Positions 62,435-64,000 of a stretch of DNA of 64,000 nucleotides are shown piece after piece. The notes beneath the pieces are model-generated. The model searched no databases and was not told the origin of the DNA. It saw only the letters and a program-made list of their open reading frames with translations. This DNA is from Pandoraea fibrosis (GTDB taxonomy: Bacteria; Pseudomonadota; Gammaproteobacteria; Burkholderiales; Burkholderiaceae), in the NCBI RefSeq assembly GCF_000807775.2, contig NZ_CP047385.1, positions 868,001 through 932,000 on the forward strand, written 5' to 3'. Within the stretch, counting starts at the first letter, position 1. Every line of letters starts with the position of its first letter. The translations under genes were made by a program, and so were the position numbers.

Positions 62435-62846
<412 letters not shown>

Positions 62847-62858
62847 CCCAATAAGACA

Positions 62859-62885
62859 CAAAAGGCTCCCGGTGGGAGCCTTTTG
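62859..62885. terminator. Bidirectional terminator of rnpB and the OsmC gene
   Basis: CAAAAGGCTCCC (62859-62870) pairs with GGGAGCCTTTTG (62874-62885). The A and T runs on either side make it usable in both directions. Confidence 0.88.
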
Positions 62886-62916
62886 CGTTTCCGGCACTAC
62901 CGCCGACCGACCGGTC

Positions 62917-63339
62917 TCAGCCTTCGACAATCTCGACGCTGTGCGTGAGTTCTGCCGTCTTGGCGAGCATGATCGACGCGGAGCAGTACTTGTCGTGCGA
63001 GAGCGTGACGGCGCGCTCCACGGTGGCCGGGTTCAGATTGCGGCCCGTGACCGTGAAGTGGAAGTGAATCTTGGTGAAGACCTTGGGGTCTTCGCTCGCG
63101 CGCTCGGCCTTGAGCGTAACGCTGCAATCCTTCACTTCGGCGCGACTCTTCTTGAGAATGAGCACCACGTCGTAGGCGGTGCAACCGCCGGTGCCGACCA
63201 GCAGCATTTCCATCGGGCGCGGTGCCTGATTGTGGCCGCCGCCTTCCGGCGCGCCGTCCATCGCGACGATGTGGCCGCTACCCGTTTGCGCGACGAAGGC
63301 CATGCCATCCTGGCCCATCCAACTCACCTTGCATTCCAT
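62917..63339 (-). CDS. OsmC/YhfA-family protein
   Basis: A 140-residue OsmC-fold protein, closer to YhfA than to OsmC itself. The two conserved redox cysteines are C53 (GTGGCTAYDVV) and C119 (DKYCSAS). Members reduce organic hydroperoxides or have unknown roles. The frame extends 30 codons upstream, but MECKVSWMGQ at 63339 is the family start. Monocistronic; the terminator is shared with rnpB. Confidence 0.92.
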   Translation of the reverse strand: MECKVSWMGQDGMAFVAQTGSGHIVAMDGAPEGGGHNQAPRPMEMLLVGTGGCTAYDVVLILKKSRAEVKDCSVTLKAERASEDPKVFTKIHFHFTVTGRNLNPATVERAVTLSHDKYCSASIMLAKTAELTHSVEIVEG

Positions 63340-63644: not shown

Positions 63645-63673
63645 TTGCGTCGCACAATCTGATTTGCTAGACT
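63645..63673 (+). promoter_or_regulatory. Promoter of the candidate small RNA
   Basis: TTGCGT (63645-63650), a 17-base spacer, then TAGACT (63668-63673) preceded by TGC, an extended -10. Predicted start at about 63680. It lies at the end of an AT-rich block (63540-63660). Confidence 0.6.
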
Positions 63674-63679
63674 TCAGTC

Positions 63680-63776
63680 ATTGGTTGTTGTGCTTCACAG
63701 CAATCCTGCAAGTGTCTCCTCCACCCTCCTCCTTTGGTGGATTTAACCCGGACCCATGAGGTTCGGGTTTTTTTTT
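63680..63776 (+). ncRNA. Candidate small regulatory RNA with two CUCCUCC anti-Shine-Dalgarno motifs
   Basis: A predicted RNA of about 97 nucleotides. Hairpin 1: 63683-63692 with 63696-63705. Motif 1, CUCCUCC, at 63716-63722. Hairpin 2: CCACC 63721-63725 with GGTGG 63736-63740, displaying a second CUCCUCC (63726-63732) in its loop. Terminator hairpin 63745-63769 ends in nine U. No protein gene on this strand lies between rnpB, which has its own terminator, and this terminator, so a dedicated transcript is required. C-rich loops complementary to ribosome-binding sites occur in several known sRNAs. The design also recalls the Rfam betaproteobacterial toxic small RNA class, an assignment I cannot confirm here. 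Confidence 0.72.
63745..63776 (+). terminator. Intrinsic terminator with nine-T tail
   Basis: AACCCGGACC (63745-63754) pairs with GGTTCGGGTT (63760-63769, one G-U), loop CATGA, then T at 63768-63776. Directional: the other strand has no T-run. Confidence 0.93.
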
Positions 63777-63832
63777 GTCCCGCCGGAATCGCGGTTTACT
63801 TGGGGCGGTTTACCGGTAGGTGCTTTTTTCTG

Positions 63833-63872
63833 TATAATCAACGGCTTTTCCGGAAATGCCCACGGAAAAAGC
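63833..63872 (+). promoter_or_regulatory. rplM promoter and leader hairpin
   Basis: TATAAT at 63833-63838, with a weak TTTACC -35 at 63809-63814. The new transcript would begin with a hairpin, GCTTTTCCG (63844-63852) with CGGAAAAAGC (63863-63872, one bulge), within a leader of about 145 bases. L13 regulates its own leader in E. coli, so a similar role is possible here (inference). Confidence 0.6.
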
Positions 63873-63990
63873 ATCAGGGAGAGCCTGCAAGCACAGGACT
63901 GCGCCATGCGACGCAAATCGTAAGGACGCGGCCGGCAGACAAGCAGGAAGTTGGTGTTAATGGGGCAAATGCATTTTATTTGGATCGATC

Positions 63991-64000
63991 ATGAAGACGT
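63991..64000 (+). CDS. rplM: Ribosomal protein L13 (start only)
   Basis: Only the first three codons (Met-Lys-Thr) fall in the window. The call rests on MKT being the L13 start in Burkholderia relatives, the usual OsmC-rplM order, and the long promoter-leader upstream. The remainder lies beyond the window, so this is inference. Confidence 0.6.

Follow-up and report, generated by a model that had tools for sequence, protein, structure and literature searches.

A predicted small RNA gene of the known family RF02278 between an osmC-family gene and rplM in Pandoraea fibrosis

We have analysed a stretch of 64,000 nucleotides of the Pandoraea fibrosis genome (contig NZ_CP047385.1, positions 868,001 to 932,000), hereafter the window, which very probably encodes a small RNA in the gap between a gene of the osmC family and rplM. 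The features at this locus, in window coordinates, are the following:

62437..62846, + strand: rnpB, the class A RNase P RNA (RF00010), upstream neighbour
62917..63339, - strand: gene of the osmC family (PF02566), divergent neighbour
63645..63673, + strand: sigma-70-type promoter with an extended -10 (TTGCGT-17-TAGACT), coordinates verified; many relatives have similar boxes at a distance that matches
63680..63776, + strand: predicted primary transcript of about 97 nt, its start deduced from the -10 box and ATTGG-type starts in orthologues
63683..63705, + strand: 5' hairpin (folding), the leader part probably removed by processing
63713..63776, + strand: RF02278 core (cmscan match), the probable processed short form, a double-hairpin RNA
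63713..63722, + strand: seed UGUCUCCUCC, with UGUCUCC unpaired and UCC in the stem (folding and orthologue comparison)
63720..63741, + strand: first hairpin, UCCACC/GGUGGA, with CUCCUCC (63726-63732) as its loop (folding)
63745..63776, + strand: intrinsic terminator, hairpin and U tract with nine T (scan, folding and covarying pairs)
63990..64000, + strand: start of rplM (PF00572), which continues past the window

The open reading frame after rplM stands in the place of rpsI and, from its sequence, we take it to be rpsI. 3' of rnpB, at 62862-62890, there is a GGCTCCC-GGT-GGGAGCC hairpin followed by TTTTG, unlisted in the terminator scan, which by eye is probably the rnpB terminator. Ahead of rplM, in the region 63809-63989, a promoter-like site (TTTACC-18-TATAAT, 63809-63838) would give a leader of about 145 nt, the fold of which is little better than shuffles (z -0.85).

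The promoter of the small RNA comprises TTGCGT at 63645-63650, a 17-base spacer, and TGC ahead of TAGACT at 63668-63673; it is not listed by a consensus promoter scan, the same scan that does find the terminator. When folded, the 97-nt RNA forms all three hairpins at -34.4 kcal/mol (z -4.17), and none of 200 shuffled sequences did as well. CTCCTCC occurs on the + strand of the window only twice, at 63716 and 63726, and on the - strand three times, none of them paired within 20 bases. A preliminary description of this DNA had given coordinates for the promoter, the hairpin arms, both CTCCTCC motifs and the terminator, and every one of them was correct; its reading of the locus as the gene of a small RNA that ends at a terminator and carries motifs complementary to ribosome-binding sites is backed by predicted structure, family match and conservation. 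The hairpin with a CUCCUCC loop, described with a CCACC/GGTGG stem, also stands, but its stem is longer, UCCACC/GGUGGA, and thus the 3' half of the first CUCCUCC lies in the stem. Folding leaves 63713-63719 unpaired and places 63720-63722 within this stem, the unpaired probability in the 97-nt RNA being 0.97-0.99 at 63716-63719 and 0.16, 0.02 and 0.01 at 63720-63722. Hence, of the two motifs that had been called exposed, in the predicted fold only the second is wholly so, held entirely in the loop, while the first is half exposed.

A cmscan against Rfam, the check that the preliminary description had proposed, matched window positions 63713-63776 (+) to the full length of RF02278 (Betaproteobacteria_toxic_sRNA), scoring 70.3 bits where the gathering score is 50. 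The RNA is therefore a local copy of a known family and, contrary to what had been claimed, not new; the class of sRNAs toxic to E. coli that was named alongside that claim is RF02278 itself, and the RNA belongs there. Toxicity to E. coli upon cloning is reported for this family in work cited in excerpts of PMC4603805 and PMC5688073. We saw no structural difference from the family: the window copy shares the two hairpins, the second of them in the predicted fold being the terminator with its U tract, together with the UGUCUCCUCC 5' end, and its pyrimidine motif complementary to ribosome-binding sites is predicted to be unpaired in UGUCUCC and in the loop, the last UCC of the first motif being paired. 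The host is betaproteobacterial, as the family name implies, and the closest named loci with an identical RplM, among the matches listed, are by record title all Pandoraea; at one of these (L247) OsmC is identical to that of the window too.

Four copies of RF02278 exceed the cut-off in this genome, with 70.3, 70.2, 54.9 and 50.1 bits. Over the same cut-off, the family is found in 84 of 100 genomes of the same taxonomic family (own genome included) and in none of 14 control genomes; in a reduced genome of the same genus (G010, 1.2 Mb), rplM is present and RF02278 gave no match. The weakest copy of the four (50.1 bits; L004:1501-1561, - strand) has a 16S rRNA gene about 500 bases away. A search for plasmid and phage copies of the RNA gave no match at the limits used, and among the papers listed by a literature search there was none on this RNA in Pandoraea.

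Five other Rfam models, namely NmsRb, anti-hemB, ncS16, suhB and SorY, match the same stretch, all under their gathering scores; the RNA is a member neither of NmsRb (RF02877, 32.7 against 52) nor of anti-hemB (RF02837, 29.1 against 49.5). Such weak matches to several models could be expected of an unrelated new sRNA whose CUCCUCC motifs resemble those of anti-Shine-Dalgarno sRNAs by convergence. However, RF02278 matches in full length at 20 bits above its gathering score, and the same locus is found in most relatives examined, which makes such a convergence exceedingly improbable.

The relation to rplM was followed in the genomes of the family, where rplM was found in 99 of 100 and 1.3 kb upstream of it was taken from all 99, one yielding 41 bases only. 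The RNA was searched for with a regular expression and then, on the 22 misses, with a covariance model (R1) built from the 77 orthologues that the expression had found. It lies within 1.3 kb upstream of rplM and on the same strand in 79 of the 98 assessable genomes (own included), 77 found by the expression and two by R1, at 42.4 bits (L140) and, weakly, at 29.3 bits (L073), both in genomes that the Rfam model did not list. The 20 genomes with no RNA upstream of rplM include one cut by a contig end (L147), and 16 of the 19 assessable ones are of 2.8 Mb or less. Family matches lie further upstream on the same strand in G085 and G013, at 7.5 and 3.8 kb from rplM, and G036 (5.0 Mb) holds two family matches in its genome, although the sequence read ahead of rplM contains none. 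An exact-pattern scan of named loci gave, among the 120 matches listed, 66 with rplM within 1.5 kb downstream, 59 of which have a divergent osmC upstream, and 45 with no rplM downstream though at least 1 kb was read, nine more being too short. In 34 of those 45 loci, again among the matches listed, a divergent osmC is found no further than 2.5 kb away, in most cases at about 1.2 kb. By record title or general classification, the 45 are Alcaligenaceae taxa, except for L224 (Trinickia) and L263 (a Burkholderiaceae MAG).

A position on the same strand upstream of rplM, as in those 79 of 98 genomes, is also what one would expect if the terminator were part of a cis element or attenuator of rplM and not of an independent gene. 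Yet rplM owns the promoter-like site mentioned above, anywhere between 150 and 925 nt separate the sRNA end from rplM across 77 genomes, and at the 45 loci no rplM was found downstream. Moreover, ncS27 of Burkholderia cenocepacia, the putative counterpart discussed below, is reported in excerpts of PMC5688073 as a discrete RNA of 92 nt, with a 3' end confirmed by RACE, which is processed to a short form and is longer than its paralogues. We therefore judge an attenuator very unlikely and continue with an independent small RNA gene. Because no rplM was found within 1.5 kb downstream at 45 of the 120 matches listed, the link with rplM is positional, and a tie to growth through the ribosomal-gene neighbour, as the preliminary description had suggested, is not supported.

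Within the RNA, the better-conserved part is the seed UGUCUCCUCC and not the loop. The seed in the form GTCTCCTCCA is present in 77 of 77 orthologues found by the regular expression, an invariance that is partly by construction since the expression itself requires GTCTCCTC; the two found by the model have one mismatch in the seed (L140) or no motif (L073). The loop keeps CCTCC in 64 of the 77 and TCCTCC in 58, alternatives including CCCAAACATAGG and CCCTTCTTTGG. In all 77, stem 1 and a later stem of at least 6 pairs fold. Of the covariation in the stems and the invariance of both motifs, which had been proposed as checks, the former is seen mostly in the terminator; UCCUCC is missing from the loop in 19 of 77 orthologues. 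Over 61 sequences, 89.4% of cells are paired against 84.7% in shuffled alignments, and both sides have changed in 70 cells, compared with 29.6; no shuffle out of 500 equalled the alignment in cells paired, in cells changed on both sides or in score, and slid versions were surpassed as well, whereas the count of pairs in which both sides have changed, 7 against 5.5 in shuffles (59 of 500), is not beyond the shuffles. Pairing is understated for some terminators, which stand one column out of register in the MAFFT alignment (A1). The first stem hardly varies, 4 of its 6 pairs never doing so, and hence gives little covariation evidence; one of its pairs changes on both sides, in two sequences. These two, L106 and L113, are of one genus, the pair being U-G in one of them and U-A in the second; the loop of their hairpin 1 is much longer and without CUCCUCC, and seed and stem are kept.

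The leader and promoter differ in many relatives; 36 of the 77 orthologues fit the pattern in which a -10-like box is followed by an ATTGG-type start 29-40 nt ahead of the seed. All 38 sequences with an ATTGG-type motif fold there with at least 6 pairs, not always into the same hairpin, as judged from single-sequence folds because the alignment of the 5' hairpin (A2) is too gappy for pair counts. Several orthologues have no such 5' leader. In four of the seven genomes of one genus (L075, L086, L118 and L119), a TATACT box stands directly ahead of the UGUCUCC seed, for which reason the 5' hairpin seems, from sequence comparison, to be dispensable; a stricter script that also requires a -35 box confirmed only L086 of the four.

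According to the excerpts of PMC5688073, overexpression of ncS27 leads to attenuated growth and an antisense construct to increased growth. Together with the CCUCCU motifs, the attenuated growth would agree with a general inhibitor that imitates the tail of 16S rRNA, is coupled to ribosome synthesis and slows translation as a whole. However, UGUCUCCUCC is better conserved than the loop, the linkage to rplM is not universal, the effects of ncS27 are reported on particular substrates (excerpts of the review PMC10987360), and in published work that included E. coli BL21 growth was only modestly impaired upon entering stationary phase. We hold a general inhibitor to be unlikely, and a broad shutdown of translation is not supported. 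The wording of the preliminary description, that the RNA represses translation broadly, is too wide because the relatives in the literature affect sets of genes for transport, metabolism and regulators (PMC5688073, PMC11722255, in excerpt).

Returning to a specific repressor, the closest described relatives appear to be ncS27 and, via osmC and coq7, S17 of Bordetella, to both of which the window RNA would correspond. ncS27 lies between BCAL3348a and BCAL3349 (PMC4603805), and BCAL3348 counts among the ribosomal protein genes whose short 5' UTRs may regulate in cis (PMC5688073). As far as these excerpts go, ncS27 and the window RNA are both RF02278, with a ribosomal protein gene, BCAL3348, at the ncS27 locus, and differ in length, 92 nt against about 97 nt predicted. 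In other Burkholderia species, among the matches listed, the RNA lies between osmC and the gene of ribosomal protein L13, which is consistent with the neighbours of ncS27. The distance from seed to rplM is 277 nt in the window and, at the 18 Burkholderia-titled loci with rplM among the matches listed, 640-747 nt in 14 and 239-317 nt in four. S17 is placed between BP3151 (glycosyltransferase) and BP3152 (coq7) in Bordetella pertussis (PMC11722255, in excerpt). Read gene by gene at one locus, the Bordetella hinzii copy has the order osmC, coq7, sRNA and a glycosyltransferase family 4 gene, thus combining the neighbours of S17 with the osmC that is common to the window. The 33-base core UGUCUCCUCCACCCUCCUCCUUUGGUGGAUUUA is identical in B. 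hinzii and the window, an identity that is partly by selection as 29 of the 33 bases are fixed by the search pattern. Further likenesses to S17 as described in excerpt are the osmC side of the locus, the nine-T terminator and the reported cleavage context GU/GU, present at 63712-63715; in contrast, the primary S17 RNA is of 190 nt, and its neighbours are coq7 and a glycosyltransferase gene instead of rplM. Since B. cenocepacia and B. pertussis are not among the compared loci, the links with ncS27 and S17 rest on the papers and on congeners. It is rather probable that ncS27 and S17 are one ancestral osmC-linked gene of Burkholderiales, the shared osmC being what points to a single gene, in which selection would hold the seed UGUCUCCUCC and leave the anti-Shine-Dalgarno motif of the loop, the leader hairpin and the promoter position free, with some species in one genus perhaps starting at the mature 5' end and so bypassing processing. 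The sibling sRNAs NmsRA and NmsRB of Neisseria are alike in action, repressing metabolic genes via anti-Shine-Dalgarno sequences (PMC5362039, in excerpt).

Candidate targets were sought as GGAGGAGACN0-10ATG, which has 18 sites in the genome, against none for the backwards control. Two sites are antisense to sRNA copies, and 12 of the other 16 have an open frame of at least 100 codons. Ten of these 12 head genes with Pfam domains, five of them transporters: three MFS, an ABC permease, an ABC binding protein, two aldehyde dehydrogenases, a biotin carboxylase, a hydrolase and a glycosyltransferase. The remaining two are an internal ATG of a chemotaxis-receptor frame (L277) and a frame without a Pfam domain (L275). 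AGAC is the commonest tail of GGAGG, with 16 sites, no other tail exceeding 10. The remaining 66 distinct GGAGGRRRY sites served as control, 33 of them with an open frame of at least 100 codons, all scanned for Pfam domains; the two arms were read differently, by the nearest ATG at GGAGGAGAC sites and by the longest-frame ATG in the control. Transporters make up 5 of 12 at GGAGGAGAC starts against 4 of 33 in the control (L308, L318, L323 and L347; p 0.043). The control rises to 5 of 33 if an exopolysaccharide exporter (L336) is counted (p 0.10), to 7 of 33 if three internal matches (L301, L303 and L315) are counted instead (p 0.25) and to 8 of 33 with both (p 0.28), and thus the excess is not significant on every count, p moving from 0.043 to 0.28. 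As a sign of targets this is weak, and GGAGAC may be no more than a favoured ribosome-binding context.

With membership in the family, the predicted structure, a conserved locus and seed, and candidate sites as our observations, it is very likely that the RNA is the local orthologue of the RF02278 double-hairpin RNA (ncS27 and, by locus, S17), repressing through pairing of its seed at ribosome-binding sites. For a relative, such pairing is reported in PMC11722255 (in excerpt), where a deletion was followed by RNA-seq and a lacZ reporter was used. By analogy with the relatives, from which transcription, processing, Hfq, repression and expression conditions are carried over, the sigma-70 promoter would start an RNA of about 97 nt at about 63680, and processing near 63713 would remove the 5' hairpin and leave a stable RNA of about 64 nt. 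The 5' UGUCUCC(UCC) of this form, aided by the pyrimidine loop and probably by Hfq, would pair with GGAGGAGAC-like ribosome-binding sites and, under nutrient shortage, keep transport, catabolic and some regulator genes from being translated. Levels of ncS27 itself are reported to rise in biofilm, in stationary phase, under starvation and on glucose medium (excerpts of PMC5688073). Most likely, then, the RNA would silence genes for nutrient uptake and breakdown by masking their ribosome-binding sites.

Taken together, the gene had been described rightly in its anatomy, and its kind is already known. What is otherwise an ordinary annotation places a characterised metabolic-control RNA in this genome and joins by locus two RNAs that were named separately, NcS27 and S17. 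Moreover, it suggests which motif is protected by selection, and thus which bases experimenters should mutate first.
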